Position numbers and translations under genes: made by a program | Source of the DNA: Manis javanica | Taxonomy: Eukaryota > Chordata > Mammalia > Pholidota > Manidae | DNA: 64,000 nucleotides | Assembly: GCF_040802235.1 (NCBI RefSeq) | Contig: NC_133158.1 | Coordinates: 154,330,401-154,394,400, forward strand | Reading direction: 5' to 3' | Shown: positions 3,132-52,600 of the stretch, one piece after another | Layout of the letters: each line of letters starts with the position of its first letter | Numbering within the stretch: the stretch's first letter is position 1 | The notes under the pieces: generated by a model | Seen by the model: the letters and a program-made list of their open reading frames with translations, nothing else | Database searches by the model: none | Told to the model about the DNA's origin: nothing

Positions 3132-3146
3132 GTTTGGACCTTTTTT
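3132..3146. repeat. Left target-site duplication of L1 copy 1
   Basis: GTTTGGACCTTTTTT at the 3' side of the element pairs with GTTTGGAGCTTTTTT at 11381-11395. The copies are 15 bp with one mismatch. The T run merges with the element's poly(A) complement, so the exact border is uncertain by several bases. Confidence 0.65.
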
Positions 3147-3171
3147 TTTTTTTGAGAGGGCATCTCTCATA

Positions 3172-3177
3172 TTTATT
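3172..3177 (-). promoter_or_regulatory. Polyadenylation signal AATAAA ending the L1 copy 1 tail
   Basis: TTTATT on the + strand reads AATAAA on the element strand. It lies 19 nt before the terminal A-tract (3153-3141), a normal spacing for mRNA cleavage. This suggests that the retroviral signal, not the L1's own, defined the 3' end of the copied RNA. Confidence 0.75.
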
Positions 3178-3301
3178 GATCAAATGGTTGTTAACAACAA
3201 TAAAATTCAGTATAGGGGGGTCAATGCTCAATGTACAATCATTAATCCATCTCAAGCCTAACTCTCGTCAGTCTCCAATCTTCTGAAGCATAACGAACAA
3301 G

Positions 3302-3358
3302 TTCTTACATGGTGAACGAATTCTTACATAGTGAATAAATTCTTACATGGTGAACAGT
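3302..3358 (-). repeat. Three 19-bp tandem repeats in the LTR-like segment
   Basis: Units at 3302-3320, 3321-3339 and 3340-3358 all begin TTCTTACAT(A/G)GTGAA. Related repeats occur in the copy 2 tail at about 43405-43460. Direct repeats of this kind are common in retroviral U3 enhancers; that role is an inference here. Confidence 0.7.
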
Positions 3359-3476
3359 ACAAGGGCATTCATCACAGAAACTTTCAGTTTTGATCACGCA
3401 TTATGAACTATAAACAATCAGGTCAAATATGAATATTCATTTGATTTTTATACTTCATTTATATGTTCATCTCACA

Positions 3477-3487
3477 TTTCTCCCTTT
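3477..3487 (-). promoter_or_regulatory. Polypurine tract before the LTR-like segment
   Basis: AAAGGGAGAAA on the minus strand lies immediately upstream of TGTGAG. In retroviruses the polypurine tract primes plus-strand synthesis directly before the 3' LTR. In L1 copy 2 the matching site (about 43578-43588) has changed to a weaker purine run. Confidence 0.5.
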
Positions 3488-4126
3488 ATTATTATTATTA
3501 TTTTTATTTTTAATAAAATGCTGAAGTGGTACGTAGATGCAAGATAAAGGTAGAAAACATAGTTTGGTGTTGTAGGAGAGCAATTGTAGATGATCAGGTG
3601 TGTGCCTGTAGACTATGTGTTAATCCAAGCTAGACAAGGGCAATAAACCATCCACGGATGCAGAAGATTTCTCTCAAAGCAGGGGGGATGAGGTTCTGAG
3701 CCTCACCTCTGTTGATCCCCAATTTCTCACCTGATGGCCCCCCTGCGACTGTGTCTGTCTTAGGTTGTTCCTCCCTTGAGGAATCTTACCCGTCACTGGC
3801 TAACCAGTCATCTTCCGGGGCCATACAGGGAAATGTAAAGTTGGTAAGTGAGAGAGAAGCCATATTGTTTGAAAAGGTTAGCTTTTTACTTCTTTGCAGA
3901 TTTATGCCCTGTGGCTTCTATGCCCAGCACTTGTCTCGAGGTATCTTTACCACCTGGAGGAATTATGATACTCGGTAACTTCGATATGAGGCACGAATTC
4001 TATTTAAGGGTTGTAATTAGGAAGGAAGAAGAAAAGCTATAGAGGTAGCATATGGAAGAAAACATGGGAGGATTGATTATTTCTTTGACATATCTTCTTG
4101 TAGAGTACCTTAAGTATGTATAGGTT

Positions 4127-4600
4127 TTAAACTACTAATTTGCACACACATATTAACATAATAGGAATACGGTGACATAAACAAAGCAAATCTATAATTA
4201 CCATCCATCTCCAGTGAAGCCAAGAAAACCATTTAGGCACCCTAGGCATTTGTGAAAATTGGTCTATGATATGATGGATATTGTCCAACTGTACTTGAAC
4301 AGTCTGAGAAAAATCAGACAAATTAAAGCAGCCCATTTCTGGGTTCTGTTCACCTCCCATATATCCTTTTAACCATGGATAGTCTATAGTCATAAGATTT
4401 TGGAGTGCTACACCTTGCACCCCTCCCAACTCCTGGTTGAGTTCCAACAGTACAGATCCGGTCAAATTCGTTGTCTCACTGTATAAACATGCCAGCCTAG
4501 ACATCTCCCTCCTCATTCCAATGGCAAGTCCAGAAAACGGTGGGGTGAACGCAGCCACGACCGCAGCATCGCCTGGATCCCTGTGGAGGCTTTTTGATGA
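4127..4600 (-). pseudogene. Endogenous retroviral env transmembrane-subunit remnant (copy 1)
   Basis: A minus-strand frame is open from about 4600 to a stop at 4127. The first ATG (4516) would give about 129 codons. The product has an LQN-containing heptad region, then a Cys-Phe-Asn-Leu-Ser-Asp segment, a further amphipathic helix region and a C-terminal hydrophobic Trp-rich anchor (about 4240-4130). This order is that of a retroviral env TM ectodomain and membrane anchor of the gamma/alpha type. The surface subunit and signal peptide are missing. At the disulfide motif two cysteines expected for the class read as glycine, so it is not a normal TM. It lies ~750 nt past the L1 ORF2 stop on the same strand. 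Whether it is translated is unknown. Confidence 0.7.
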
Positions 4601-4796
4601 TCATCCCCCAGCACGAGTCCTCCAGAGAGTGCTGATGCCGGAAGCTCCTCCTCATATCGTATCTTAGTTCATTTTCTGGGAATCCAAGCTAGGCCTTGAT
4701 CTTCTGCATAGAAACAAACAGACCCTTTGCCCACACTTTGACATGCCCTCTATACCACTGTGCAGAACTCATTGGAGGTCAGCACACAGGGACTGC

Positions 4797-5007
4797 TTTT
4801 TTTTTTTTTATTAAGAGAAAGGAATATTATCAGAAAAGAGTACCTCCATAGCTGATCATCTGACACCCTTTAAATGATCAACATTAAGGATATTTAATGT
4901 TGAGTTCCATTGTGATGATGGATGCGTTGATCTTTGATTTACCAATAGTTTTATCCTATCAAGGAGTAATCCCCCTTTTCTTTCTTTCTTTCTTTCTTTT
5001 TTTTTTT
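4797..5007 (-). repeat. Internal A-tracts and 160-bp linker in L1 copy 1 tail
   Basis: Element-sense order: the usual L1 3' end, then an A-rich/AAAG run (5007-4972), a non-L1 segment (4971-4810) and a second A13 tract (4809-4797). L1 copy 2 has the same plan (45065-45046, 45045-44906, 44905-44893). Stacked A-tracts separated by unrelated segments are the signature expected of successive 3' transductions. Confidence 0.75.
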
Positions 5008-5348
5008 AATCTTTAATCTACACTTACATGAAGAATACTATATTTACTATGCTCTCCCCTATATCAGGTCCCCCCTAACAACCACATTAAGGTTACTGTC
5101 CATCAGCTTAGCAAAATGTTGTAGAATCCCTACTTGTCCTCTCTGTGTTGTGCAGCCCACCCTCCCCTTTCTCCCTCCCCCCCATGCATGCTAATCTTAA
5201 TACCCCCCTTCTTCTTCCCCCCCCTTATCCCTCCCTGCCCACCCATCCTCCCCAGTTCCTTTCCCTTTGGTACCTGTTAGTCCATTTTTGGGTTCTGTAA
5301 TTCTGCTGCTGTTTTGTTCCTTCGGTTTTTCTTTTGTTCTTATACTCC

Positions 5349-8300
5349 TCAGATGAGTGAAATCATTTGGTATTTCTCTTTCTCCACTTGGCTTATTTCA
5401 CTGAGCATAATATTCTCCAGCTCCATCCATGTTGCTGCAAATGGTTGGATTTTTCCACTCCTTATGGCTGAGTAGTATTTCATTGTGTATATGTACCACA
5501 TCTTCTTTATCCATTCATCTACTGATGGACATTTAGGTTGCTTCCAATTCTTGGCTATTGTAAATAGTGCTGCGATAAATATAGGGGTGCATCTGTCTTT
5601 CTCAAACTTGATTGCTGTGTTCTTAGGGTAAATTCCTAGGAGTGGAATTCCTGGGTCAAATGGTAGGTCTGTTTTGAGCATTTTGATGAACCTCCAAACT
5701 GCTTTCCACAATGGTTGAACTAATTTACATTCCCACCAGCAGTGTAGGAGGGTTCCCCTTTCTCCACAGCCTCGCCAACATTTGTTGTTGTTTGTCTCTT
5801 GGATGGCAGCTATCCTTACTGGTGTGAGGTGATACCTCATTGTAGTTTTAATTTGCATTTCTCTGATAATTAGCGATGTGGAGCATCTTTTCATGTGTCT
5901 CTTGGCCATCTGTATTTCTTTATTAGAGAATTGTCTGTTCAGTTCCTCTGCCCATTTTTTAATTGGGTTATTTGTTTTTTGTTTGTTGAGGCGTGTGAAC
6001 TCTTTATATATTCTGGACGTCAAGCCTTTATAGGATCTGTCATTTTCAAATATATTCTCCCATACTGTAGGGTTCCTTTTTGTTCTATTGATGATGTCTT
6101 TCGCTGTACAGAAGCTTTTCAGCTTAATGTAGTCCCGCTTGCTCATTTTTGCTGTTGTTTTCCTTGCCCGGGGAGATATGTTCAAGAAGAGGTCACTCAT
6201 GTTTATGTCTAAGAGGTTTTTGCCTGTGTTTTTTTCCAAGAGTTTAATGGTTTCATGACTTACATTCAGGTCTTTGATCCATTTTGAGTTTACCTTTGTA
6301 TATGGGGTTAGACAATGGTCCAGTTTCGTTCTCCTACATGTAGCTGTCCAGTTTTGCCAACACCATCTGTTGAAGAGACTGTCATTTTGCCATTGTATGT
6401 CCTTGGCTCCTTTATCAAATATTAATTGACCATATTTGTTTGGGTTAATGTCTGGAGTCTCTAATCTGTTCCACTGGTCTGTGGCTCTGTTCTTGTGCCA
6501 GTACCAAATTGTCTTGATTACTATGTCTTTGTAGTAGAGCTTGAAGTTGGGGAGTGAGATCCCCCCTACTTTATTCTTCTTTTTCAGGATTGCTTTGGCT
6601 ATTCGGGGTCTTTGGTATTTCCATATGAATTTTTGAATTATTTGTTCCAATTCATTGAAGAATGTTGCTGGTAATTTGAGAGGGATTGCATCAAATCTGT
6701 ATATTGCTTTGGGCAGGATGGCCGTTTTGACGATATTAATTCTTCCTAGCCATGAACATGGGATGAGTTTCCATTTGTTATTGTCCCCTTTAATTTCTCT
6801 TAAGAGTGACTTGTAGTTTTCAGAGTATAAGTCTTTCACTTCTTTGGTTAGGTTTATTCCTAGGTATTTTATTCTTTTTGATGCAATGGTGAATGGAATT
6901 GTTTTCCTGATTTCTCTTTCTATTGATTCATTGTTAGTGTATAGGAAAGCTACAGATTTCTGTGTGTTAATTTTGTATCCTGCAACTTTGCTGTATTCCG
7001 ATATCAGTTCTAATAGTTTTGGAGTGGAGTCTTTAGGGATTTTTATGTACAGTATCATATCATCTGCAAATAGTGACAGTTTAACTTCTTCTTTACCAAT
7101 CTGGATTCCTTGTATTTCTTTGTTTTGTCTGATTGCTCTGGCTAGGACCTCCAGTACTATGTTAAATAACAGTGGGGAGAGTGGGCATCCCTGTCTGGTT
7201 CCCGATCTCAGAGGAAATGCTTTCAGCTTCTCGCTGTTCAGTATAATTCTGGCTGTGGGTTTATCATATATGGCCTTTATTATGTTGAGGTACTTGCCCT
7301 CTATTCCCATTTTGCTGAGAGTTTTTATCATGAATGGATGTTGAATTTTGTCATATGCTTTTTCAGCATCTATGGAGATGATCATGTGGTTTTTGTCTTT
7401 CTTTTTGTTGATGTGGTGGATTATGTTGATGGATTTTCGAATGTTGTACCATCCTTGCATCCCTGGGATGAATCCCACTTGGTCATGGTGTATGATCCTT
7501 TTGATACACTGTTGAATTCTGTTTGCTAATATTTTATTGAGTATTTTTGCATCTACATTCATCAGGGATATTGGTCTGTAATTTTCTCTTTTGGTGGGGT
7601 CTTTGCCTGGTTTTGGTATTAGGGTGATGTTGGCTTCATAGAATGAGTTTGGGAGTATTCCCTCTTCTTCTATTTTTTGGAACACTTTTAGGAGAATGGG
7701 TATTATGTCTTCTCTGTGTGTCTGATAAAATTCCGAGGTAAATCCGTCTGGCCCCGGGGTTTTGATCTTGGGTAGTTCTTTGATTACCGTTTCAATTTCT
7801 TTGCTCGTAATTGGTTTGTTTAACTTTTGTGTTTCTTCCTTGGTCAGTCTTGGGAGGTTGTATTTTTCTAGGAAGTTGTCCATTTCTTCTAGGTTTTCCA
7901 GCTTGTTGGTATATAGGTTTTCATAGTAGTCTTTAATAATTCTTTGTATTTCTGTGGAGTCTGTCGTGATTTTTCCATTCTCATTTCTGATTATATTGAT
8001 TTGTGTTGATTCTCTTTTTCTCTTAATAAGTTGGGCTAGAGGCTTATCTATTTTGTTTATTCTCTCAAAGAACCAGCTCTTGGTTTCGTTGATTTTTGCT
8101 ATTGTTTTATTCTTCTCAATTTTGTTTATTTCTTCTCTGATCTTTATTATGTCCCTCCTTCTGCTGACTTTAGGCCTCATTTGTTCTTCTTTTTCCAGTT
8201 TCCATAATTGTGATGTTAGACTATTCATTTGGGATTGTTCTTCCTTCTTCAAGTGTGCCTGGATTGCTATATACTTTCCTCTTAAGACTGCTTTCGCTGC

Positions 8301-9191
8301 GTCCCACAGAAGTTGGGGCTTAGTGTTGTTGTTGTCATTTGTTTCTATATATTCCTTGATCTCTATTTTGATTTGTTGATTGATCCATTGATTATTTAGT
8401 AGCATGTTGTTAAGCCTCCATGTGTTTGTGAGCCTTTTTGTTTTCTTTGCAGAATTTATTTCTAGTTTTATACCTTTGTGGTCTGAAAAATTGGTTGGTA
8501 GAATTTCAATATTTTGGAATTTACTAAGGCTCTTTTTGTGAGCTAGTATGTGGTCTATTCTGGAGAATGTTCCATGTGCACTTGAGAAGAATGTATATCC
8601 TGTTGCTTTTGGATGTAGAGTTCTATAGATGTCTATTAGGTCCATCTGTTCTAGTGTGTTGTTCAGTGCCTGTGTGTCCTTACTTATTTTCTGCCCAGTG
8701 GATCTATCCTTTGGGGTGAGTGGTGTGTTGAAGTCTCCTAGAATGAATGCATTGCAGTCTATTTCCCTCTTTAATTCTGTTAGTATTTGCTTCACATATG
8801 CTGGTGCTCCTGTATTGGGTGCATATATATTTAGAATGGTTATATCCTCTTGTTGGACTGAGCCCTTTATCATTATGTAGTATCCTTCTTTATCTCTTGT
8901 TACTTTCTTTGTTTTCAAGTCTATTTTGTCTGATATTAGTACTGCAACCCCTGCTTTCTTCTCTCTGTTGTTTGCCTGAAATATGTTTTTCCATCCCTTG
9001 GCTTTTAGTCTATGCTTGTCTTTGGGCTTAAGGTGAGTCTCCTGTAAGCAGCATATAGATGGGTCTTGCTTTTTTATCCATTCTGTTACTCTGTGTCTTC
9101 TGATTGGTGCATTAAGTCCATTTACATTTAGGGTGACTATTGAGAGATATGTACTTATTGCCATTGCAGGCTTTAAATTCGTGGTTACCAA
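5349..9191 (-). CDS. L1 ORF2 protein (endonuclease-reverse transcriptase), uninterrupted
   Basis: A 1280-codon frame, about the normal L1 ORF2p length, without stops or frameshifts. The N-terminal APE-like endonuclease (about 15-245) shows LNVNGLN with Asn22, QETH with Glu51, GDFN (152-155), RIDHI (211-215) and SDH (236-238). The reverse transcriptase (about 480-780) shows SIDAEKAYD (606-614), [12 protein letters not shown] and the catalytic FADD at 708-711. The C-terminal cysteine-rich segment [18 protein letters not shown] is present. ORF2p nicks target DNA and reverse-transcribes the L1 RNA in cis at the nick. The usual start may be Met10 (MAISTY) rather than Met1. It lies 168 nt after the ORF1 stop, as in a bicistronic L1. 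Every key residue I can check is present, so it looks coding-competent; activity is not shown. Confidence 0.95.
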
Positions 9192-9359
9192 AGGTTCAAG
9201 GTTAGCTTCTTTAGTATCTTACTGCCTAACTTAGCTCGCTTATTGAGCTGTTATATACACTGTCTGGAGATTCTTTTCTTCTCTCCCTTCTTACTCCTCC
9301 TCCTCCCTTCTTCATATGTTGTGTGTTTTGTTCTGTGCTCTTTTTAGGAGTGCTGCCAT

Positions 9360-10258
9360 CTAGAGCAGTCCCTGTAGGATGCCCTGTAGAGGTGGTTTGT
9401 GGGAAGCAAAATCCCTCAGCTTTTGCTTGTCTGGGAATTGTTTAATCCCGCCATCATATTTAAATGATAGTCGTGCTGGATACAGTATCCTTGGTTCAAG
9501 GCCCTTCTGTTTCATTGCATTAAGTATATCATGCCATTCTCTTCTGGCCTGTAGGGTTTCTGTCGAGAAGTCTGATGTTAGCCTGATGGGTTTTCCTTTA
9601 TAGGTTAACTTTTTCTCTCTAGCTGCCTTTAAAACTCTTTCCTTGTCCTTGATCCTTGCCATTTCAATTACTATGTGTCTTGGTGTTGTCCTCCTTGGAT
9701 CCTTTCTGTTGGGGGTTCTGTGTAAATCCATGGTCTGTTCTATTATTTCCTCCCCCAGTTTGGGGAAGTTTTCAGCAATTATTTCTTCAAAGAGACTTTC
9801 TATCTTTCTATCCCTTTTCCTCTTTCTTCTTCTTCTGGTACCCCTATAATACGAATATTATTCCTTTTGGTTTGGTCACATAGTTCTCTTTGTGTTGTTT
9901 CATTTCTGGAGATCCTTTTATCTCTCTCTATGTCAGCTTCTGTACGTTCCTGTTCTCTGGCTTCTATTCCTTCAATGGCCTCTTGCATCCTATCCATTCT
10001 GCTTATAAATCCTTCCAGGGATTGTTTCACTTCTGTGCTCTCCTTCCTGACATCTGTGATCTCCCTCCGGACTTCATCCCATTGCTCTTGCATTTTTCTC
10101 TGCATCTCATCCCATTGCTCTTGCATTTTTCTCTGCATCTCTGTCAGCATGTTCATGATTTTTATTTTGAATTCTTTTTCAGGAGGACTGGTTAGGTCTG
10201 TCTCCTTCTCAGGTGTTGTGTCTGTGATCTTTGCCTGCCTGTAGTTTTGTCTTTTCAT
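9360..10258 (-). pseudogene. L1 ORF1 (RNA-binding chaperone), broken by one frameshift
   Basis: L1 ORF1p is a trimeric RNA-binding protein that coats L1 RNA. The N-terminal part (10258-9800) begins [10 protein letters not shown], carries a long heptad coiled coil and enters the RRM ([10 protein letters not shown]). It then meets a stop at 9800. The rest (RRM end and C-terminal domain, RPARL-like segment, through 9360) is open in another frame. Comparison with copy 2 shows that an 8-bp tandem duplication (9797-9804 and 9805-9812) causes the shift. The coiled coil also has an in-frame 33-bp duplication (10078-10110, 10111-10143) absent from copy 2. Summed length is about 300 codons, near normal for the family. 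Confidence 0.9.
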
Positions 10259-11380
10259 GGTGATAGAGATAGTTTGCAGGGCTGGTACAAGTGACCTCTG
10301 GAAGAGCTTCCGTTCTTGTTGGTTTGTGGCCTTCCTCTCCTGGGAGAATAGCTACCTCTAGTGGCTTGTGCTGGGCAGTTGTGTGCAGATAGGGCTTCTG
10401 CTTCCTGCCTGGTTGCTATGGGGTTTATCTCCGCTGTAGCTGTGGGCGTGACCTGGCTGGGGCTGCTCCTCCAAAATGGTGGAGCCCTGTTGGAGGGGGA
10501 GCGGCCGGGAGGCTGTTTATCTCCATAAGGGGCCTCTGTGCTCCCTGCTGCCCAGGGGGTTAGAGTGCCCAGCGATCCCCAGATTCCCTGCCTCTGGTCT
10601 AAGTGTCCTGTCCTGCCCCTTTAAGACTTCCAAAAAGCACTCTCCAAACCAAAGCAACAACAGCAGCAATGAGAGAGGGAACAGAAAAAAAAAAAAAAAA
10701 AAAGGAAAAAACACGCGATTTTTTTTTTTTCCCTCAGGCACCAGTCCCAGGCACCTGCTCACTGGTCCTGCTGCCCTGCCTCCCTAGCACCGGGGTCCCT
10801 GTCCCTTCAAGGCTTCCAAAAAGCACCCGCCCACCGGTCCTGCAGTGAAAAACGCGCGATATTCTTTGTCTTCAGGCGCCGGTCCCAGGCACCCTCTCAC
10901 CGTTCCTGCTGCTCTGCCTCCCTGGCACCAGAGTCCCTGTCCCTTTAAGGCTTCCAAAAAGCACTCGCCAAAAAGAGAAAAAAAAAAGGGGAAAAGCGCG
11001 CGATTTCCTCTGTCCTCAGGCACCGATCTCAGGCACCCGCCCACGGGTCCCGCCACCCTGCCTCCCTAGCAACGGGGTCCCTGTCCCTTTAAGGCTTCCA
11101 AAAAGCACTCGCCAAAAAAAAAAAAAAACCGCTCCGGTTTCTTTCCACCCACCGGGAGCCGGGGGAGGGGCGCTCGGGTCTCACCGGGCCAGGGCTTGTA
11201 TCTTACCCCTTTCGCAAGGTGCTGGGTTCTTGCATGTGTGGATGTGGTCTGGATGTTGTCTTGTGTCCTCTCGTCTCTATTTTAGGAATAGTTTTGTTTG
11301 TTATATTTTCATAGCTCTATGTGTTTTTGGGAGGAGATTTCCACTGCTCTACTCACGCCGCCATCTTGGCTCCGCCTCAA
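10259..11380 (-). promoter_or_regulatory. L1 copy 1 5'UTR / internal promoter region
   Basis: About 1.1 kb between the element start and ORF1, GC-rich with many CpGs, as in L1 internal promoters. It begins with GGCGGAGCCAAGATGGCGGC, which contains a YY1-type AAGATGGCGGC near +10, known to position the start site in other L1s. It holds about 3.5 tandem monomers. Promoter function is inferred from position and family. Confidence 0.7.
10611..11135 (-). repeat. Tandem monomers in the L1 copy 1 5'UTR
   Basis: Units beginning CCCTGTCCCTTTAAGGCTTCC (or close variants) start at 10611, 10797, 10935 and 11079, giving lengths of 186, 138, 144 and a partial ~57 bp. Each contains an A-rich linker, a CGCGCGAT-type CpG cluster and a CAGGCACC block. 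The first is lengthened by A and T homopolymers. Copy 2 has a single such unit (about 50609-50780). The layout recalls monomeric mouse L1 promoters but the sequence is unrelated as far as I can tell. Confidence 0.8.
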
Positions 11381-11395
11381 GTTTGGAGCTTTTTT
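11381..11395. repeat. Right target-site duplication of L1 copy 1
   Basis: GTTTGGAGCTTTTTT, partner of 3132-3146, one mismatch in 15. Confidence 0.65.
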
Positions 11396-28600: not shown

Positions 28601-31600
28601 ACTTGATAATATCCTCAGGATGAAAGAGTGAGATTCATACCAGCTTATATTTTTCTCTTTCAAAATACATTTTGAGTATATATAGAAATAAGTTCAAATA
28701 CATATTCTTTTCCCTCTTTTTAACACAAGTGGTAGCATATGATACACACTGTTCTGAATCTTGCTTTATGAAATCTCATTTAAAAATATCATCAGTTATA
28801 TTAAACAGCTTTAAACAGTGTGAAGCCAAAACTTCAGGCTGAACCACTGCCTCGGTGAACTGGCATTCACCCTGGATGGACACATTACAACTCTCTTTAA
28901 ATATGCTTCTTCTAGGTCGTGTCTGCCATAACCATACACCATTAAGACAAAGTCAAAGCATTATCAGATGTATTTTAACCATATTGGAAAATGGTTCAAG
29001 CCTTGTAGAGATTCTTGCCTGAGGTGAATGAGTCTCTGCTGACAATCTGCACATCTTTAGGTGACGTACTATGACATTTGTTGCGATGGAATTTGAGTCC
29101 TCCCAATTTACAGCAGGGTTCTGTAGAGTTAAATAGTTTTGCTTTTTAGAATTGTTAAATTTGCATATATTGTTACTTCCTATTATACTGGCTTATTCTC
29201 TCATGTTATTTTTAATTGAGGGCTCTCAGAGCTTTGCCATCAATTATCATCCTTGTTTTTGATCAGAGGAAGAGATGTTCTAGGATTTGTCCCCAGAGCA
29301 CCTCACTGTACAGCAATTACCTGCTCTGTGTTCGTGCTGGGGATCAGCTCTGCCCAGAACACAGTGGGGCTTATGTGAGTAAGGGCACTCAAGGGGTATT
29401 TATCCCCAAGCAACTTATGATCTACCACTTTAATGAAATAACAAAGGAGAAAGGAGAAAACTAGCGTGACTGCTTTTCAGGCCTCTGCTATTCAGATTGT
29501 GACATAACATTTTAGAGCTGAAAAATAATTTCGAAATGGTGTAGCCCAACCTCAAATCTTTATATATTTAAAGAAAGCCAAAAGGTTCTGAATGGTTAAG
29601 TGACTTGCTCAGGTGGCGTCAAGGACAACACATTAGCCCCTTAAAATGACCCACCAGCAGTGAAGGTTTTCAAACGTCAGGTTACAGGCTAGAGCAGGAA
29701 TAGGGTCGACTGCTTTGGCCACCGTGAGAACACAGAGCATGAGGAGAAGCCAGGAGAGAACAGGGAAAGGGACGGAAGGAAGAGTCTTCGGCCTGCTTTG
29801 CATCTTTTTTTTTTAAGGTTTTATTGATATACACTCTTACGAAGGTTTTACATGAAAAAGCAATGTGGTTACTACATCTACCCATATTATCAAGTCACCC
29901 CCCATACCCCAATGCAGGCACTGTCCATCAGTGTAGTAAGATACCACAGATTCACCATGTGCCTTCTCTGTGCTACAGTTTTCCCCGTGACCCCCCCACA
30001 CCATGTGTACTAAACATAATACCCCACAATCCCTTTCTCCCTCCCTCCCCATCCACCTTCCCCTCCCCTTTGGTAACTGCTAGTCCCTTCTAGGAGTCTA
30101 TGAGTCTGCTGCTGTTTTGTTCCTTCAGTTTTGCTTTGTTGTTTTACTCCACAAGTGAATGAGGTCATTTGGTACTTGTCTTTCTCCGCCTGGCATATTT
30201 CACTGAGCATAATGCCCTCTAGCTCCATCCATGTTGTTGCAAATGGTAGGATTTGTTTTCTTCTTATGGCTGAATAATATTTCATTGTGTATATATACCT
30301 CCTCTTCTTTATCCATTCATCTACTGATGGACACTTAGGTTGCTTCCATATCTTGGCTATTGTAAAAAGTGCTGCAATAAACATAGCAGTGCATATGTGT
30401 TTTTGAATCTGAGAAGTTGTATTCTTTGGGTAAATTCCAAGGAGTGGGTTTCCCGGGTTAAATGGTATTTCTATTTTTAGCTTTTTGAGGAACCTCCATA
30501 TTGCTTTCCACAATGGTTGAACTAGCTTACATTCCCACCAGCAGTGTAGGAAGGTTCCCCTTTCTCTGCATCCTTGCCAGCATTTGTTGTTTTTAGTCTT
30601 TTCGATGCTGGCCATCCTTACTGGGGTGAGGTGATATGTCATTGTGGTTTTAATTTGCATTTCCCTGATGATTAGTGATGTGGAGTGGCCTGCTTTGCAT
30701 CTTATCTTTACCTGAAGCACCCCTAGCATTCCTTAAGTAGCCAGGCCACCTTTTTTAACTGGAGGGTGAAGAAGTCCTTGATCAGCCTCTCTGCCAGGTT
30801 CTCCTCTTTGCTGTCAATGAGTCATCCCCTGGTGCTGTCAGAAATTGAACCTTGGCCCTTTTCCAAAGACAATGGAAGACCAGAAGGTTTTGGAGAAGCA
30901 GTTAAGCTTAGATTGAAAATCAAAGATTTAGGTAGTTCAATTAGTCACTGCACCTACTAGCTGCAGAGAAATACACAAAACTGCTTCTGCACACCGGGCA
31001 TTTAGGGTGAGGTGGGAACAACAAGACATGCACATACACTCAGTTATGATCCAGCGAGCCAGTTCAGTGCGGGCCGAGGGGCCCAAGGGAAAGCATTCTG
31101 GAGAATGTTGGGCCTGAGCACACAAATATGTGGGATATATGAACCATCTGAGAGGTGGAAGGGAAAAACATTCCAGGCTTCCAGCCAGGAGAAAAACATG
31201 AGCCACAGGTTCATGAACATGGGCATAATCCAGGGAAGACAGAAAGCAGGAGACAGTTCTGAAGAGCAGAGAAGCCTCGCTGGGATCTGTGGGAAAGAGC
31301 TGAGGTCAGACTGAGGAGCGTTTCAGGGGCGAGGCAACAGGGTGCAACCCTCATGTGCTTGTAACCAGAGCCATGTCCATTCTGGAACAGGACTGTTTTA
31401 ATAGACGTTTAATCTGGCAGCCAGCAGCATGAAATATAAAGGAGTGAGGAGGACTGACAGCAGGGAGATACGCTAACTGGTGCTTTTGGTAATGCCCATA
31501 TTAACTAATTCTCCCAGCAATGGTAGAGACAAATCTAAGACACTCAGAAGAAGAGAAAGAATGGCGTGCAGGATCACATTTAAGAAGAGGGAAACACCGG

Positions 31601-40600: not shown

Positions 40601-43600
40601 CCGTGAAAAGTTACATTTGGAGGCAAAATGAACTAGTCTCCATAACAGGAGTGCCTTTAGCTCCCATATGGGTGCTGAGGATGAAAGCAGAGACCAGTTA
40701 GTCCATCCAGAAAGAGCTCTTCTCCACAAATTGAAAAAACCTGATCAAATTCAGAGATGTTGATTTGCACTAACAAACTTCAAAAGAAATTGATATGTGA
40801 ACCAAAATACCAGTATATTAACATATAACTCTAGTTAGCTATAATAATCTAACTGCCAGAGGGTCCTAGAGACACATGTTCTGAGCAGACCAGTTTCCTC
40901 ATACAGGAAAGTTACATGGGAAGCTGCACGCACACCAGAAGATGGTGTGGTGAGCATGCAGTCAGACACCAGAGAATTAGTTACGCACAGCAGATTTTGG
41001 GTGATGCCAGGTCAGCGGTTGTCTCTGTCTCTACCGTGGGGTCAGATAGCCCTGCCCAAGTATATCCTGAACAATACCTGGTGGGACCCTGTCTAGATTT
41101 GCTCCCCTAATTCTTATTTCTCTGAGCAGCCTTCACTAATCATTCAACTAATACCTTGTGGGGTCCTGGAGGGACAGTAGGAAGGCCAGTGTGGCTCCAG
41201 TGCAGTGTAAGAGAAGAGAAGTTGTGGGAAATGGGGTGGGAGAGGGGACAGAGGCCAAATGACCAGGGGCCTTGTAGACCAAGGTGAGGAGTTAGAATTT
41301 CAATTGCAGTGGGAGGCTGATGGAAGGTTTGGGGCAGAGGATAGGTAACCTCCAATTTAGGGAATAAAAGGGTCACTGAGCACTGTGTGAGGAAAAGCCT
41401 GTAGGGGGATAAGAGGCAGTGGGAGGCTGGTTAGGAGACAAGGGCGTTGGCGGTGGTGCTCGTGGGCGCGACCTAGTGGTGTCCATCAGAGTAGCGGTAA
41501 ATGTTTTGAGAAGCCAGAAAATAAGGACTGTTAGAAAAGAAAAACAAACACACAAGACTTTCAAATTTCTAAAGTATGCTGCATTTCTTGAAATACTTTC
41601 CCAATTAATATAAACCTTGATATTTTTCCGGAGCATTTGATTTTCTTAAGAAAGAAAACTACTCCAAGGAAATGAGTTTATTTACATGCACATAGTAGAA
41701 TAACATGTATAAACAGGATCTGTGCCATTTAACCTGTATATTACTACCTGCCTTTCCTGAAGATATTTTAGGTTAAAAATTAGGAAGAAATAAACATTTT
41801 AACTAGAATGTTTCATAGGTATTTAGTGTAACTACCATTGTCTATTTGCTGACTTACTAAACAGCCCTACCCCTACTTCTTTCTTTTGTTCAGGTATCAG
41901 AAAAGGGTAGCCCTGTACATTGCTGCCTTTTACGGGTACGTCGAGCTCACAGAATGGGCCCTGAAGCAGGGCGCAAGGCCCTATGAAGCAGTCGGTGTTC
42001 ACCCCTGTCGAGTATGGTGCCACGAAGCCCTTCATGCAGATGTCTCTAAATGCCCCATTCATGCAGCAGCAGAAGCCGGCCAACTGTTGATTCTGAAGGC
42101 CTTTGTCAACTGCAGCGTGCTGTGCCTGGAATGCAAAAATTTATCAGGCCAAATTCCCCTGACCATTGCATTCAAACACCAGCATAAAGACTGTGTATTA
42201 TATTTATTGAGTAAAATGTGGTCCACGGTTTCTTTTCCAAAAATTTCAGTCCCCATGAGGATTTATGTTAGAATAAAACAATGGGTCCTCAGAGCTCAGA
42301 GTCACAACTTTAATAAAAGTCAGCTTTGCAGAGCAAGGGTCTTTGGGGAGAAAGTTGGAGACACTGTGGTGGTGGATGGTTTCACCAAACCGAAAATGAC
42401 CTCCAAGAGCTGGCATAAGGCTGGGAACAAGAACTCACAAAGCCCTGTGGGCAAGCTACCAACTCTGGGCAACCAAACTGCAAGCAGGAAACCTGTCGAT
42501 CCTTCAGCAATTTCTCAGCAGAACACAAGACAAGAAGCCCTCAAATTTCCTCCTCTGGTAGATGCAAATACATTCTCTGAATTACAGAGACATCAACAGC
42601 AAAGTCAGGAAAATATTACTATCATAGCAAGGAAAAAAGAAAAGCTTTTAAAAAATACGTATCTCCCCCAGCTCCCGCTCCCTCCAGTTTCAAGAGTGGC
42701 CTATTCACACCCATCATTTTACTATGCAACACCCAGTGCTGACTGGGTATTCAAATCCTCCTTCGCCTCTTTCTCAGAGCACAGTGGGAAGACACCAAGG
42801 GAGAACGCCATCTACTGCTTAGCTGTGGCCAGGTAACATTTTTTCTTGAAACTTACAAAGGCAAATCTTTAATAGGGCAGATCTGGGGCAGGGAAAGGTC
42901 CATGAATCCCTACCATTCCATAGAGTTTAGAACAGGTTGTTCTAATGCATCAGTACCCACCTTCAAGGACTTCATCTTAGCCTTGTGTCTAGGACAAAAT
43001 GAACTGATTTGTTGGCCAATCCAATCTGTGTAGTACTTTACTCCTCCAGCTTTCAGGAAGAAAAGAGATGTAGTGAAGAGTGGTATCAATTAACAAGGTC
43101 CCTTGACAGGTTGGACAAGGTTTGTCCCTTGGACAGATTGACAAGTTTCTTTTTTTTCCTTTCTTTCTTTCTTTTTTTTTTTTTTAATTTCTGTTCAGTG
43201 TAGTTCATTTTTTTGTTGTTGTTGTGTTTTTGGGGGGGTTTTTTTGGGTTTGTTTTTTTTTGAGAGGGCATCTCTCATATTTATTGATCAAGTGGTTGTT
43301 AACAACAATAAAATTCTGTATAGGGGACTCAATGCACAATCATTAATCAACCCCAAGCCTAATTCTCAACAGTCTACAATCTTCTGAAGCATAATGAACA
43401 AGTTTTTACATGGTGAACAAGTTTTTACATAGTGAATACGTTCTTACATGGTGAACAGTGCAAGGGCAGTCATCACAGAAACTTTCTGTTTTGATCACAC
43501 ATCATGAACTATAAACAATCAGGTCAATTATGATTATTCATTTGACTTTTATACTTGATTTGTATGTGAATCCCACATTTCTTCCTTATTATTATTATTA

Positions 43601-46600
43601 TTATTATTTTTAATAAAATGCTGAAGTGGTACGTAGATGCAAGATAAAGGTAGAAAACAGTTTAGTGCTGTAACAGGGCAAATGTAGATGATCAGGTGTG
43701 TGCCTGTAGACTAAGTATTAATACAAGCTAGACAAGGCCACCAAAACATCCATGGATGCACAAGATTTCTCTCAAAACAGGGGGATGAGGTTCTAAGCCT
43801 CACCTCTGTTGATCCCCAATTTCTCACCTGATGGCCCCCCTGCGACTGTGCCTGTCTTAGGTTGTTCCTCCCTTAAGGAATCTTACCTGTCTCTGGCTAA
43901 CCAGTCATCTTCTGGGCCATACAGGGAGATGTAAAGTTGGCAAGTGAGAGAAAAGCAATATTGTTTGAAAAGGTTGGCTTCTTACTTTTTTGCAGATTTA
44001 TGCCCTGTGGCTTCTATGCCCAGCATTTGTCTTGAGGTATCTTTACCACTTGGAAGAATTATGATACTCAGTAATTTCGATATGAGGCATGAATTCTACT
44101 TAAGGGTTGTAATTATGAAGGAAGAAGAGAAGCAATAGAAGTATCAGATGGAGGAAAACATGGGAAGTTTGATTATTTCTTTGACATATCTTCTTGTAGT
44201 GTAACATAAGCATGTATAGGTTTCAAATTACTAATTAAATTGCGTGCATACATTAACATAATAGGAATACAGCTACATAACCAAAGCAGACCTACAATTA
44301 CCAGCCATATCCAGTGAAACCGAGAAAACCAGTTAGGCACCCTAGGCATTTGTGAAAACTTATCAATGATATGATGAGTATTGTCTAACTGAATTTGAAT
44401 ATTTTGAGAAAAATCAGACAAATTAACACATTCCTGGGAACTGTTCACATCCCATATGTTCTTCTAACAGTAGATAGTCTACAGTCGCAAGATTTTGGAG
44501 CGCTGCAACTTGCACTTCTCCTAATTCTTGGTTGAGTTCCGACAGTACAGATCCAGTCAAATTTGTTGTTTTACTGTATGCACAGGCCAGCTTAGATATC
44601 TCCTTCTTCATTCCAATGGCAAGTCCAGGAACCAGTGGGATGAATGCAGCTACAACTGCAACAGTTCCAGGATCTTTGTTGAGGTTTTTTGATGATCATC
44701 TTCGGGAGTGACTCTTCCAGAGAATCTTGATGTTGGAGGTTCCTCTTCATATCGTATCTTAATTCATTTTCTGGGTAGCCAAATTAGGCTTTGATCCTCT
44801 GTATAAACACAAACAAACCCTTTGCCCACACTTTGATATGCCCATTATACCATTGTGAAGAACTTATTGGAGATCACCACACAGGAACTGCCTTTTTTTT
44901 TTTTTAAGAGAAAGGAATATTATCAGAAAAATGTACTTCCATAGCTGATCATCTGACACCCTTTAAATGATCAAAGTTAAGGCTATTTAAAGAATACATT
45001 AATCAGTGATTTGCAGTTAGTTTTATCCTATCAGGGAGTAATCTTCCCTTTCTTTTCTTTTTTTTGTTATCATTAATCTACAATTACATGAAGAACATTA
45101 TGTTTACTAGGCTCTCCCCTATACCAGGTTCCCCCCACAAATGCCCTTACAGTCACTGTCCATCAGCATAGCAAAATGTTGTATGATCACTACTTGTCTT
45201 CTCTGTGTTGTACAGCCCTCGCCTTTCTCCCACCCCCCCATTATGCATGCTAATTGTAATACCCCCCTTCTTCTTCACCTCCTTATCCTCCCTACCCACC
45301 CATCCTCCCCAGTCCCTTTCCCTTTGATACCTGTTAGTCCATTCTTGGGTTCTGTGATTCTGCTGCTGTTTTGTTCCTTCAGTTTTTCCTTTGTTCTTAT
45401 ACTCCACAGATGAGTGAAATCATTTGGTATTTCTCTTTCTCTGCTTGGCTTATTTCACTGAGCATAATAGCCTCTAGCTCCATCCATGTTGCTGCAAATG
45501 GTAGGATTTGTTTTCTTCTTATGGCTGAATAATATTCCATTGTATATATGTACCACATCTTCTTTATCCATTCATCTACTGATGGACACTTAGGTTGCTT
45601 CCAATTCTTGGCTATTGTAAATAGTGCTGTGATAAACATAGGGGTGCATCTGTCCTTTTCAAACTTGAGTGCTGCATTCTTAGGGTAAATTCCTAGGAGT
45701 GGAATTCCTGGGTCAAATGGTAGGTCTGTTTTGAGCATTTTGAGGAACCTCCATACTGCTTTCCACAATGGTTGAACTAATATACATTCCCACCAGCAGT
45801 GTAGGAGGGTTCCCCTTTCTCCACAACCTCACCAACATTTATTGTTGTTTGTCTTTTGGATGGTAGCCATCCTTACTTTTGTGAGGTGATACCTCATCGT
45901 GGCTTTAATTTGCATTTCTCTGATAATTAGCGATGTAGAGTATCTTTTCATGTGTCTGTTGGCCATCTGTATTTCTTTTTTGGAGAACTGTCCACTTCCT
46001 CTGCCGATTTTTTAATTGGATTATTTGTTTTTCGTTTGTTGAGGTGGGTGAGCTCTTTATATATTTTGGACGTCAAGCCTTTATCAGCTCTGTCATTTAC
46101 AAATATATTCTCCCATACTGTAGGGTACCTTTTTGTTCTATTGATGGTGTCTTTTGCTCTACAGAAGCTTTTCAGCTTAATATAGTCCCACTTGTTCATT
46201 TTTACTGTTTGTTTTCCTTGCCCAGGGAGATATGTTCAAGAAGAGGTCACTCATGTTTATGTCTAAGAGGTTTTTGCCTATGTTTCTTTCTAAGAGTTTT
46301 ATGGTTTCATGACTTACATTCAGGTCTTTGATCCATTTTGAATTTACTTTTGTGTATGGGGTTAGACAATGGTCCAGTTTCATTCTCCTACATGTAGCTG
46401 TCCAGTTTTGCCAGCCACATCTGTTGAAGAGACTGTCGTTTCGCCATTGTATGTCCATGGCTCCTTTATCAAATATTAATTGACCATATATGTTTGGGTT
46501 AATGTCTGGAGTCTTTAATCTGTTCCACCCGTCTATGGCTCTGTTCTTGGGCCAGTACCAAATTGTCTTGATTACTATGGCTTTGTAGTAGAGCTTGAAG

Positions 46601-49600
46601 TTGGGAAGTTGGATCCCCCCTACTTTATTCTTCTTTCTCAGGATTGCTTTGGCTATTTGGGGGTCTTTGGTGTTTCCATATGAATTTTTGAACTATTTGT
46701 TCCACTTCGTTGAAGAATGTTGCTGGTAATTTGAGAGGGATTGCATCAAATCTGTATATTGCTTTGGGCAGGATGGCCATTTTGATGATATTGATCCTTT
46801 CTAGCCACGAGCATGGGATGAGTTTCCATTTGTTAGTGTCCCCTTTAATTTCTCTTAAGAGTGACTTGTAGTTTTCAGGGTATAGGTGTTTCACTTCTTT
46901 GTTTAGGTTTATTCCTAGGTATTTTATTCTTTTTGATGCAATTGTGAATGGAATTGTTTTCCTGATTTTTCTTTCTATTGGTTCATTGTTAGTGTATAGG
47001 AAAGCTACAGATTTCTGTGTGTTAATTTTGTATCCTGTAACTTTGCTGTATTCCACAATAAGTTCTAGTAGTTTTGGAGTGGAGTCTTTAGGGTTTTTTA
47101 TGTACAATATCATGTCATCTGCAAATAGTGACAGTTTAACTTCTTCTTTACCAATCTGGATTCCTTGTATTTCTTTGTTTTGTCTGATTGCCATGGCTAG
47201 GACCTCCAGTACTATGTTAAACAACAGTGGGGAGAGTGGGCATCCCTGTCTAGTTCCCGATCTCAGAGGAAAAGCTTTCAGCTTCTTACTGTTCAGCATA
47301 ATGTTGGCTGTGGGTTTATCATATATGGCCTTTATTATGTTGAGGTACTTGCCCTCTATTCCCATTTTGCTGAGAGTTTTTATCATGAATGGATGTTGAA
47401 TTTTGTCAAATGCTTTTTCAGCATCTATGGAGATGATCATGTGGTTTTGGCTTTCTTTTTGTTGGTGTGGTGGATGATGTTGATGGATTTTCGAATGTTG
47501 TACCATCCTTGCATCCCTGGGATGAATCCCACTTGGTCATGGTGTGTGATCCTTTTGATATATTTTTGAATTCAGTTTGCTAAGATTTTATTGAGTATTT
47601 TTGCAAATACATTCATCAGGGATATTGGTCTGTAATTTTCTTTTTTGGTGGGGTTTTTGCATGGTTTTGGTATTAGGGTTATGTTGGCTTCATAGAATGA
47701 GTTTGGGAGTATTCCTTCCTCTTCTATTTTTTGGAAAACTTTAAGGAGAATGGGTATTATGTCTTCTCTGTGTGTCTGATAAAATTCAGAGGTAAATCCG
47801 TTCGGCCTGGGGGTTTTGTTCTTGGGTAGTTTTTTTGATTACCATTTCAATTTCTTTGCTCGTAATTGGTTTGTTTAACTTTTGTGTTTCTTCCTTCGTC
47901 AGTCTTGGAAGGTTGTATTTTTCTAGGAAGTTGTCCATTTCTTCTAGGTGTTCCAGCTTGTTGGCATATAGGTTTTCATAGTAGTCTTTAATAATTCTTT
48001 GTATTTCTGTGGAATCTCATGATTTTTCCATTCTCATTTCTGATTCTGTTGATTTGTGTTGATTCTCTTTTTCTCTTAATAAGTTTGGCTAGAGGCTTAT
48101 CTATTTTGTTTATTTTCTCAAAGAACCAGCTCTTGGTTTCATTGATTTTTGCTATTGTTTTGTTCTTCTCAATTTTATTTCTTCTGTGATCTTTATTATG
48201 TCCCTCCTTCTGCTGACTTTAGGCCTCATTTGTTCTTTTTCCAGTTTCAATAATTGTGATGTTAGGCTATTCATTTGGGATTGTTGTTCCTTCTTCAAGT
48301 GTGCCTGGATCGCTATATACTTTCCTCTTAAGACTGCTTTCGCTGCGTCCCACAGAAGTTGGGGTTTTGTGTTGTTGTTGTCATTTGTTTCCATATATTC
48401 CTTGATCCCTATTTTAATTTGTTCATTTATCCATTGATTATTTAGGAGCATGTTGTTAAGCCTCCATGTGTTTGTGAGCCTTTTTGTTTTCTTTGTAGAA
48501 TTTATTTCTAGTTTTGTACCTTTGTGGTCTGAAAAGTTGGTTGGTAGGATTTCAATATTTTGGAATTTACTGAGGCTCTTTTTGTGGGCTAGTATGTGGT
48601 CTATTCTGGAGAATGTTCCATGTGCACTTGAGAAGAATGTATATCCTGTTGCTTTTGGATGTAGAGTTCTATAGATGTCTATTAGTTCCATCTGTTCTAC
48701 TGTGTTGTTCAGTGCCTTACTTATTTTCTGCCCGGTGAATCTATCCTTTGGGGTGAGTGGCATGTTGAAGTCTCCTAAAATGAATGCATTGCAGTCTATT
48801 TACCCCTTCTGTTCTGTTAGTATTTGTTTCACATATGCTGGTGCTCTTGTGTTGGGTGCATCTATATTTAGAATGGTTATACCCTCTTGTTGCACTGAGC
48901 CCTTTATCATTATGTAGTGTCCTTTATCTCTTGTTACTTTCTTTGTTTTGAGGTCTATTTTGTCTGATATTAGTACTTCAACCCCTGCTTTCTTCTCTGT
49001 TGTTTGCCTGAAATATGTTTTTCCATCCCTTGACTTTTAGTCTGTGCTTGTCTTTGGGTTTGAGGTGAGTGTCTTGTAAGCAGCATATAGATGGGTCTTG
49101 CTTTTTTATCCATTCTATTACTCTGTGTCTTTTGATTGGTGCATTAAGTCCATTTACATTTAGGGTGACTATTGAGAGATATGTACTTATTGCCATTGCA
49201 GGCTTTAGATTCGTGGTTACCAAAGGTTCAAGGTTAGCCTCTTTAGTATCTTACCGCCTAACTTAGCCTGCTTATTGAGCTGTTATATACAATGTCTGGA
49301 GATTCTTTTCTTCTCTCCCTTCTTATTCCTCCTCCTCCATTCTTCATATGTTGGGTGTTTTGTTCTGTGCTCTTTTTAGGAGTGCTCCCATCTAGAGCAG
49401 TCCCTGTAAGATGCCCTGTAGAAGTGATTTGTGGGAGGCAAATTCCCTCAACTTTTGCTTGTCTGGGAATCGTTTAATCCCTCCATCATATTTAAATGAT
49501 AATCATGCTGGATACGGTATCCTTGGTTCAAGGCCCTTCTGTTTCATTTCATTAAATATATCATGCCATTCTCTTCTGGCCTGTAAGGTTTCTGTTGAAA

Positions 49601-52600
49601 AGTCTGATGTTAGCCTGATGGGTTTTCCTTTATATGTGACCTTTTTCTCTCTAGCTGCCTTTAAAACTCTTTCTTTGTCCTTGATCTTTGCCATTTTAAT
49701 TATTATGTGTCTTGGTGTTGTCCTCCTTGTGTCCTTTCTGTTTGGGAGTTCTGTGTATTTCCATGGTCTGTTTGATTATTTCCTCCCCCAGTTTGGGGAA
49801 GTTTTCAGCAATTATTTCTTCAAAGACACTTTCTATCCCTTTTTCTCTCTCTTCTTCTTCTGGTACCCCTATAATACGGATATTGGTCACACAGTTCTCT
49901 TAAAATTGTTTCATTCCTGGAGATCCTTTCATCTCTCTCTGTGTCAGCTTCTATGTGTTCCTGTTCCCTGGTTTCTATTCCATCAATGGCCTCTTGCATC
50001 TTATCCACTCTGCTTATAAATCCTCCCAGAGTTTGTTTCACTTCTGTAATCTCCTTCCTGTCATCTGTGATCTCCCTCTGGATTTCATCCCTTAGCTCTT
50101 GTATATTTCTCTGCATCTCCATCAGCATGTTTATGATTTTTATTTTGAATTCTTTTTCAGGAAGACTGGTTAGGTCTGTCTCCTTCTCTGGTGTTGTCTC
50201 TGTGATCTTTGTCTGCCTGTAATTTTGCCTTTTCATGGTGATAGATATAGTTTGCAGAGCTGGCATGAGTGACAGCTGGAAGAAATTCCCTTCTTGTTTG
50301 TTTGTGGCCTTCCTCTCCTGGGAGAATAACGACCTCTAGTGGCATGTGCTGGGCAGCTGCGTGCAGAAAGGGCTTCTGATCCTTGCCTGGCTGCTATGGA
50401 GCTTATCTCTGCTGTTGCTGTGGGTGTGACCTGCCTCAGGCCGCTTCTCCCATATGATGGAGCTGCGTTGGAGGGGGTATGGCCGGGAGGCAATTTATCT
50501 CCGTGAGGGGCCTCCTTACTCCCTGCAGCCCAGGGGGTTAGAGTGCCCAGAGATTCCCAGATTCCCTGCTGCTGTACTAAGTGTCCCGGGACATTTCCAT
50601 CCAGTTTTGGGGTCCCTGTCCCTTTAAGACTTCCAAAAAAGCACTTGCAAAAAATTAATTAATTAATTAATTAAAATAAATAAATAAATAAAAAGTAAAT
50701 CCGCTCGCTTTTCTTTGTCCCCTGGTGCCGGCCTCAGGCACCCACTCACCGGTCCTGCTACCCTGTTTCCCTAGTATCCAGGACCCCACGCATGCACTGT
50801 GTCTGCGCTCTGGTGCAGATGGCTGGGGCTGGGTGTTCAGCAGTCCTGGGGTCCCTCTCCCTCCCTGCTCTGACTCATCTCCTCCTGCCGGGATCTGGGG
50901 TGAGGGGCGCTCGGGTACCACTGAGCTGGGACTTGTATCTTACCCCCTTCACGAGGCACTGGTTTCTCGCAGGTGTGGATGTTGTCTCGATGTTGTCCTG
51001 TGTCCTCTGGTCTCTAGTCTAGGAAGAGTTGTCTTTGTTATATTTTCATAAATATATGTGGTTTTGGGAGGAGATTTCCACTGCTCTACTCACGCCGCCA
51101 TCTTTGCTCCACCCCCCTTTTCTTTTTCTTTTTAACTAATAAGAAATTATTAATTATATTTAAAGGAAGAATGGGGAAACTTGAAATGTGAGAAGAGACA
51201 TCAAAAGTGTCACAGAAGACTGGATGTTAATGAAAGTGGAAGGAAGGAAGGGAGCAATTTAATGTCAAACGGCCCCATAAAGACTTCAGTTAACTTACTG
51301 GGCAAGATCCACAGGCTGGGGGAGATCTATATTGGACAGAGTAATACAATTGAAATTAGTAGTTTGTCCCGGCCCGCGGGACAAACGTGGAGTGTGCCGG
51401 AGACGCCTGCAGAAATGAGACAAGCAGGGGACACAAAGAATGACCAGCAAGACAGGATGTCTGATCAAGCTGGCGAAGTTTATTGTTTACAGGCTCAATT
51501 TATACAAGTAGCAAGTAAGGGGTGGGTCAGGAGATAATTGGACCTTAGGTGGCGCTGGCGGGGAGGTGTTTTCACACATCCTCAAGGTCTCCCTATTTTC
51601 AGAGTGAGGAGTCTTGGCCCATCTTCAAGGACAAGATATGTTTTTGTGAGCAGATAACTTCCAAGGACTGCACCGGTTGCTCTCAAGCTTGTGCTTTCCC
51701 ATGCTGCGTTCAGACGTGGGGGAAGGGACATAGCCCCGGCTCCCAACAGTAGTTAAGGAAAATTTTTTAAGTAATCCATTATCACATTTAAAGACATAGA
51801 CAAGTGTATCAGAAGTGGATTTTTCAGGCATATTCATCTCATAAGAGAAAACATATACTGGTCATGAGATTTCACTGAGAACACAACTCAGATAAGATCT
51901 CAGGTCCCATCCATTTACTTATGAGGTATTATTGGGTGCCAATATTCCAGTAGAAATAGCGATTTATGAGTGGCTTTTCCTTTTACTCAATGTAATGAGA
52001 AGGAAAATATACACAAGGTTCATTAACTTTGGTTGCCTTTCTGATGGGTGTTTATTTCAGGTAGGTTGTTGCCACCTAGTGGTGAGAGTGATTTGGGGTA
52101 CAAAACTGGCAAAATTCAAGATCCAGCACAATGAGATAGACAGTAAATAAAGACACTGTAGAACAGTTTAGATCTTTGTAATTTGTGAGGTATCTGTGAC
52201 TAGAATGCATGTGAAGAGATAATCTAAAAATCTAGAAAAATACTAGAGCATGGTATATTGAAAAAATTATGCAGCCCATCTTAAAAATCAGGCTGTAAAC
52301 ATGAGAGGAAAAACTGCTGAGTTTTATCAACAAATGCATGTTAAAAATTAGTTTAATTTTCAACCATCCAAGCATTCCTTATTATGGCCCAGTGCAGTGC
52401 TAAGCAGAATAGCAATGTGCAAAAAATCTGTGTTTAAGGTGGGCATATGCACAAGTTTGGGGTGAGAAAGACTGCCAGTGTCTATTGTGTGTAGTGCTTT
52501 CGGGGGAAGAAATTGAAGTATGAAATATATAGTAAATTACATAAGGAACATTTATCTCAGATGTATGGCTCATTGGGTTTTTACATTTGTAGATATCTGT

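Follow-up and report, generated by a model that had tools for sequence, protein, structure and literature searches.

An L1 family with a retroviral env-LTR 3' end and a 3'UTR intron in the pangolin Manis javanica

The window analysed here, a stretch of 64,000 nt from the Manis javanica genome, holds two minus-strand L1 elements, A (3141-11380) and B (43261-51113), which are full-length or near full-length and carry a common tail of retroviral appearance. Such an arrangement raises the question of whether the tail is copied together with its L1 as one chimeric element and, if so, how an L1 could have come by a retroviral 3' end.

Structure and genomic spread of the tail-bearing L1s

A preliminary description of this DNA had stated that both L1s extend into a tail of the same order, and end-to-end alignment of tail A (3154-5008) with tail B (43261-45064) bears this out, with identical segment order. 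Read in the sense direction, the ordinary L1 3' end is followed by A-tract 1, a ~160-nt linker, A-tract 2, an env-like part in which a TM stretch is open, a spacer of about 640 nt, a purine tract, a U3/R starting with TG, AATAAA, GATGCCCTCTC and poly(A). A and B are about 85% identical in the tail and about 90% in the L1 body. Features are listed below for element A unless stated.

3132..3146: target-site duplication of A, 3' copy
3141..3153, minus strand: poly(A) tail of A, 13 A
3154..3476, minus strand: U3/R part of the retroviral LTR, with TG start at 3476 and end at the poly(A) site GATGCCCTCTC
3172-3177, minus strand: AATAAA of U3/R, 18 nt ahead of the poly(A) site
3477..3487, minus strand: polypurine tract before U3, present also in L062 and L063 with the last base changed
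3488..4129, minus strand: spacer from env TM to polypurine tract
4130..4600, minus strand: open env TM stretch, 157 aa, alpharetrovirus-like
4601..4795, minus strand: remaining upstream env-like sequence, the start of the spliced-in exon (CAGTCCC in A)
4793, minus strand: end of the second acceptor, inside the upstream env-like sequence
4796..5273, minus strand: 478-nt 3'UTR intron, donor CAG/GTACCA at 5274/5273, acceptor AG at 4797-4796
directly before the second A-tract, minus strand: pyrimidine tract of the intron, TTCCTTTCTCTT
4797..4812, minus strand: second A-tract (A2)
4813..4975, minus strand: linker, transduced sequence that the comparisons made assign neither to ordinary L1 nor to env
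4976..5007, minus strand: first A-tract (A1), at the ordinary L1 3' end
5008..11380, minus strand: L1 body of A, with ORF1 broken and about three 144-bp tandem units near the 5' end
5349..9164, minus strand: L1 ORF2, open for 1271 aa
11381..11395: target-site duplication of A, 5' copy
43261..45064, minus strand: tail of B, with unchanged order and a TM frame split in two by indels
45065..51113, minus strand: L1 body of B

The env TM-like frame claimed for the tail proved to be real, as the open stretch at 4130-4600 (minus strand) matches solved TM chains of avian sarcoma/leukosis virus (ASLV) with E values of 1.3e-4 and 1.4e-4. The purine tract, TG start and AATAAA that had been described are likewise present, at 3477-3487, 3476 and 3172-3177, respectively. 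In Pfam, no family was found at E 1 for the TM stretch of A; two stretches of B matched no family at the cut-off and one stretch of B gave two weak sub-cut-off matches to unrelated families. A search for homologous proteins returned 19 proteins, all on short ENA contigs, and was uninformative.

Variation in the TM frame was examined by codon position. Variants common to at least 3 of 45 copies fall at positions 1/2/3 with counts of 28/40/40 (p=0.26) and private variants with counts of 50/61/79 (p=0.034), with no difference between the two classes (p=0.65). Column differences between old and young copies (9/9/18) lean to the third position with p about 0.1, and the corresponding mean divergences are 0.122/0.140/0.191; the ORF2 control for this test is itself weak (37/28/49, p=0.054). 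Most of 150 scored TM matches are stop-free, a set that is biased since the best-scoring matches were picked and thus chosen for openness.

As for the L1 part, ORF2 of A is open for 1271 aa, close to the ~1,270 aa of a LINE-1, and ORF2 of B is broken. ORF1 of A is broken and therefore A is not competent in its present form, which does not remove a decayed copy from the LINE-1 family. Stop-to-stop frames of 335, 318 and 315 aa stand at the ORF1 place in three other copies (L009, L016 and L018, among eight copies listed). About three tandem 144-bp units are present in the 5'UTR of A (window 10686-11128), and the unit is matched several times in other copies; its repetition suggests a putative monomer-type promoter. 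Elsewhere in the window, a 94-bp unit occurs in two tandem copies with 94% matches (53718-53907). Beyond the poly(A) of B (43160-43260) lies an extra stretch of about 22 nt and then a second A-tract, possibly a short additional 3' transduction.

Three further L1 ends in the window had been described as lacking the tail, and all three are real. One, at about 29807-30686, has a 17-bp target duplication read by eye, and the others lie at 60757-61565 and at about 56847-57150, the latter being a plus-strand fragment. A dog SINE consensus, sought in the window, was absent.

Exact pattern searches of the genome gave 17,366 matches to a 32-mer of the tail end followed by AAAA and 4,342 matches to the linker-A2-env junction, with 0 matches for both reversed-pattern controls. 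These counts are not insertion counts, since exact patterns pass over diverged copies and register tandem end modules and local duplications repeatedly; nor are the first-look candidate numbers (1,121; 1,988; 30,690; 899) copy counts. The junction is clearly not confined to the two loci at which it was first described. A 251-base junction query from A yielded 1,121 first-look candidates and, among them, 40 scored matches, of which the 39 besides A are 95-99% identical to it, and the corresponding query from B gave 40 out of 1,988, with 39 besides B at 92-95%.

We fetched the 20 best of the 39 loci listed besides A (8.8-9.0 kb each). The L1 is continuous into the tail in 20/20, and the blocks across the junction share 94.4-96.5% identity with A; the copies are 5'-truncated in various ways and some contain nested insertions. 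The common end motif (at most three mismatches) followed by an A-rich tail is present in 19/20, L016 lacking the motif; in L022, TC precedes the A's at the tail end. This continuity and common end do not agree with the tail segments being separate insertions.

Target duplications of at least 14 bp (one mismatch allowed) were found in 8 of 13 testable copies, namely A, B and the 11 fetched copies whose 5' boundary lies inside the locus, as compared to 1 of 156 mismatched control pairs; the observed count is favoured because 5' boundaries were picked from match starts, in several cases where a duplication showed. A has a 15-bp duplication with one mismatch (3132-3146 and 11381-11395). None of this length was called in the other 5/13 copies, including B, where none is callable in the low-complexity flanks. 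Comparison of the A and B flanks (about 2 kb on each side) revealed no similarity at E 1e-3. The copy counts, the continuity in all the fetched loci and the target duplications therefore indicate an independently amplified chimeric L1 family and not a segmental duplication, and the earlier view of A and B as independent insertions is upheld by their unrelated flanks and by the separate duplications.

Several arrangements of tails were seen in addition. The terminal purine tract-U3-R module appears to be tandemly repeated in some tails: it follows the first A-rich tail of L009 (C3:154266400-154275200) from about 8533, and at C1:2241791/2242161/2242533 and C1:6426337/6426715 neighbouring tail ends of one strand are separated by 370-378 bp. 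Junction pairs in opposite orientation exactly 4,747 bp apart occur three times among the first ~100 listed places (C1:1823007/1827754, C1:4500634/4505381 and C1:23476200/23480947) and are a duplicated inverted arrangement. L027 (C1:201258400-201267400) is a chimeric L1 with the env part of an older tail copy as its 3' flank, apparently a nested insertion. Three same-strand tails at C3:154233012, 154253112 and 154273489, about 57-97 kb from the window, are spaced by 20.1 and 20.4 kb and are possibly a local tandem duplication.

Origin of the retroviral 3' end

The explanation that we favour, with a probability of about 0.86, is that A and B belong to a large and long-lived L1 family whose retroviral 3' module was founded by 3' transduction and whose 3'UTR intron is sometimes spliced out before re-insertion. 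A founder L1, whose own 3' end lacked AATAAA, would have been followed downstream by the 3' fragment of an ERV of alpharetrovirus-like type. Read-through RNA of this L1 would have been cleaved after the viral AATAAA and re-inserted by the L1 machinery, and the chimera would then have become a new master, with the tail supplying both a poly(A) signal and the 3' end copied by the L1 enzyme. In keeping with 3' transduction, the copies carry non-L1 sequence after the L1 A-tract and a new poly(A) after a downstream signal. An amplifying chimera founded by an L1 near a provirus 3' end had been proposed from the window alone, and the junction counts, the continuity and the target duplications lend support to it.

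No AATAAA is present just before A1 in 22/22 tail-bearing copies. ATTAAA is a common variant poly(A) signal, and a sequence of this type precedes A1 in 21/22 copies, B having neither form; the old L1 end therefore need not be signal-less. Among the tail-less copies of the window, AATAAA is kept at 29807 and 57150 and absent at 60757. It seems plausible to suppose that the chimeric L1 now depends on the viral poly(A) signal and has profited from it while active.

Capture of a viral poly(A) site fits these observations, and the search for the parental provirus that had been suggested yielded only a candidate U5-like sequence. An exact pattern of the 17-mer tail end followed by non-A occurs at only 8 genome sites, of which five read AATATAT in the match itself and the other three were fetched. 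Two of these, L059 with a plain flank and L061 with a rearranged tail, were rejected as proviral continuations. In L060, the tail end is followed by a CpG-bearing U5-like stretch of about 110 nt and then by L1 ORF2. This stretch gave 40 scored matches including itself (of 899 candidates), the other 39 being 87-96% identical, and these contain two same-strand pairs 5.8 and 14.1 kb apart (C6:116417605/116423398 and C19:59902007/59916141). A pattern spanning the R-U5 border occurs at 2 loci, L060 included. From the L060 stretch and its matches, an LTR family with this U5 probably exists. An LTR start preceded by a non-A base was matched 178 times genome-wide; two of these sites, L062 and L063, were considered as the parental provirus and rejected as ordinary tails with a changed last purine. 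The portion available to us of a survey of Chinese pangolin ERVs reports an alpharetrovirus-like ERV-Alpha-Mpen (PMC12584738), a candidate relative of the tail matched by description only, and does not describe an L1 family with this tail.

Two other routes to the same chimera deserve attention. A two-step capture, in which an L1 with a transduced linker (A2 being its poly(A)) inserted in a proviral env and was read through to the 3' LTR, is in our estimate unlikely but worth serious consideration. It accounts for both A-tracts and has a precedent, likened by description only, in ERV-Gamma.b9-Mpen, the one ERV in which, by the consulted part of the same survey, a nearly complete L1 stands between env and the 3' LTR (PMC12584738). 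Against it, B has no AATAAA at the usual distance before A2 and A-type copies have one only at the A2 border itself; in addition, the TCTT/AAAA at A2 resembles an L1 target, which would fit instead with an ERV 3' fragment inserted downstream of an L1. Improbable, in turn, is a template switch, by which, within one insertion, the L1 enzyme would have left the L1 RNA for an ERV env mRNA and the fused copy become the master. The accessible part of PMC12593883 reports a switch of this kind that joined an SVA and a processed pseudogene, but here the linker and A2 between the two parts require an extra step.

A 3'UTR intron and its spliced copies

Beyond what had been described earlier, the fusion holds a 478-nt intron in the 3'UTR. 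An env start without the preceding A-tract (pattern CTAACA-GCAG) occurs at 67 exact sites, of which 30 were read. These sites were at first taken as proviral env, a view that was rejected since 25 of the 30 are spliced L1s: the L1 3'UTR runs up to ACTAACAG, 75 nt after the ORF2 stop, and is joined directly to env at CAGTTCC, with three further bases missing at the joint in one of them (L042). The other five (L032, L034, L035, L041 and L054) are unspliced or 5'-truncated copies. The missing 478 nt start in A with GTACCA and end with AAG, and a pyrimidine tract stands ahead of A-tract 2.

Genome-wide, 78 exact junctions of L1 3'UTR and env were found (gap of 0-3 nt allowed, all listed; control 0). 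Tallied by eye twice from the full list, 52 have a gap of 3 nt (CAG in 49), 26 have 0 nt and none has 1 or 2. With AAGCAG at the acceptor, a further product, shorter by 3 nt, is expected, and the gap pattern is the signature of an AAG/CAG tandem splice acceptor; the 78 direct junctions are spliced L1 RNAs that were re-inserted. Unspliced copies have the donor GT in 22/22 cases, whereas TT stands at the aligned place in 3/3 tail-less copies of the window. Judged by its sequence, the donor CAG/GTACCA appears strong. The L1 3'UTR gives the donor, and the linker with its A-tract the pyrimidine tract and the tandem acceptor; the minority of RNAs that lose the 478-nt intron before re-insertion give rise to the spliced copies which the junctions reveal. 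By the usual rule, an exon junction this far (75 nt) after a stop codon invites nonsense-mediated decay, which may limit the spliced RNAs.

To place the two forms relative to each other, a tree of 45 tails was used (25 unspliced, 19 spliced and 1 ambiguous), from which six spliced rows (too short) and the unspliced L010 (start motif not found) were left off; its sampling is biased, as similarity to A decided which unspliced copies were included and a pattern match which spliced ones. Spliced copies occur in old as well as young parts of the tree and the unspliced B stands among old spliced copies. The spliced label is clustered (0/500 shuffles as low); with irreversible intron loss, it must have arisen separately at least 6 times when forks under 95 are collapsed, and up to 13 times. 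Part of the spliced set may descend from a spliced master or consist of duplicates; L049, L050 and L051 are alike and look like copies of one insertion.

End branches of the tail tree range from 0.011 to 0.042 in unspliced copies (A 0.014, B 0.042) and from 0.020 to 0.082 in spliced ones. At a mammalian rate of 2.2e-9 per site per year, the branches would correspond to roughly 5 to 37 million years and the chimera family would be long-lived.

That the direct junctions represent a genomic deletion inherited by one lineage, with no splicing, is very improbable. The clustering on the tree and the likeness of L049, L050 and L051 would agree with it; the GT-AG borders, the two junctions 3 nt apart with none at 1 or 2 nt, and the spread of spliced copies over old and young parts of the tree with several origins do not, and splicing before re-insertion is the better account. 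As for a segmental duplication or an assembly artefact, three C3 tail copies are apparently in duplicated blocks, judged from their spacing only, and the idea is next to negligible in view of thousands of copies, distinct target duplications and the unrelated flanks of A and B.

Simple alpharetroviruses carry an RNA export element between TM and the polypurine tract. By analogy, the spacer at this place might be such an element and let unspliced L1 RNA, with its intron, out of the nucleus, so that the balance of spliced and unspliced RNA together with the poly(A) signal would have driven the spread, a proposal that we put forward as speculative and doubtful.

Comparison with known systems

A literature search for this L1-env/LTR chimera found no description at the level of titles and abstract starts, and the consulted portions of PMC9604959, PMC5020319 and PMC7353768 contain nothing on it. 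The closest parallel is the SINE-R of primate SVA elements, which consists, according to the part of PMC12593883 available to us, of the env 3' end and 3' LTR of HERV-K10 followed by an A-tail. The pangolin tail likewise comprises the 3' part of env, the LTR up to the viral poly(A) site and a poly(A) tail, and is spread by the L1 machinery. In contrast to SINE-R, its virus is alpharetrovirus-like with an ASLV-like TM and not HERV-K10, the module is joined to an L1 that has an ORF2 of its own instead of to a non-autonomous composite, and a linker, two A-tracts and an intron are added. Neither a HERV-K10 origin nor the hexamer, Alu-like and VNTR parts of an SVA are found, and the 5' part is L1. 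The pangolin tail therefore works like SINE-R and is no SVA.

In L1 3' transduction, downstream sequence is carried along after the internal poly(A) signal is bypassed (PMC12593883, in part), and families of such transductions are reported in the accessible parts of PMC4862182 and PMC6425141. The pangolin chimera carries downstream sequence in the same way; it differs in that the carried piece is retroviral and has become a standing 3' end, with over ten thousand tail ends.

Spliced and re-inserted L1 RNAs are known in human as SpIREs, which make up 131 of 6,609 full-length L1PA1-6 copies (about 2%); the consulted portion of PMC5860796 places their introns in the 5'UTR or 5'UTR/ORF1, where promoter activity is reduced or ORF1p spoiled, and describes them as generally dead ends. 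The pangolin copies similarly are re-inserted spliced L1 RNAs from which a GT-AG intron is absent, in a similar share (78/4,420, about 1.8%, from exact patterns of unequal strictness). In contrast to the human introns so described, the pangolin intron lies in the 3'UTR (4796-5273) and leaves promoter and ORFs untouched, and spliced copies therefore need not be dead ends.

Pangolin LTR totals may include L1 tails of this kind, and such tails may be taken for the 3' ends of proviruses in ERV surveys. SVA has taught that a retroviral env-LTR end can serve a non-autonomous passenger of L1. Here an L1 lineage itself appears to have adopted a retroviral end and amplified with it (4,342 junctions; 17,366 tail ends), gaining a 3'UTR intron on the way. 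The family is thereby a natural experiment on the requirements of an L1 3' end in terms of poly(A) signal, 3'UTR and export, and on whether spliced L1s stay active when the intron is harmless.
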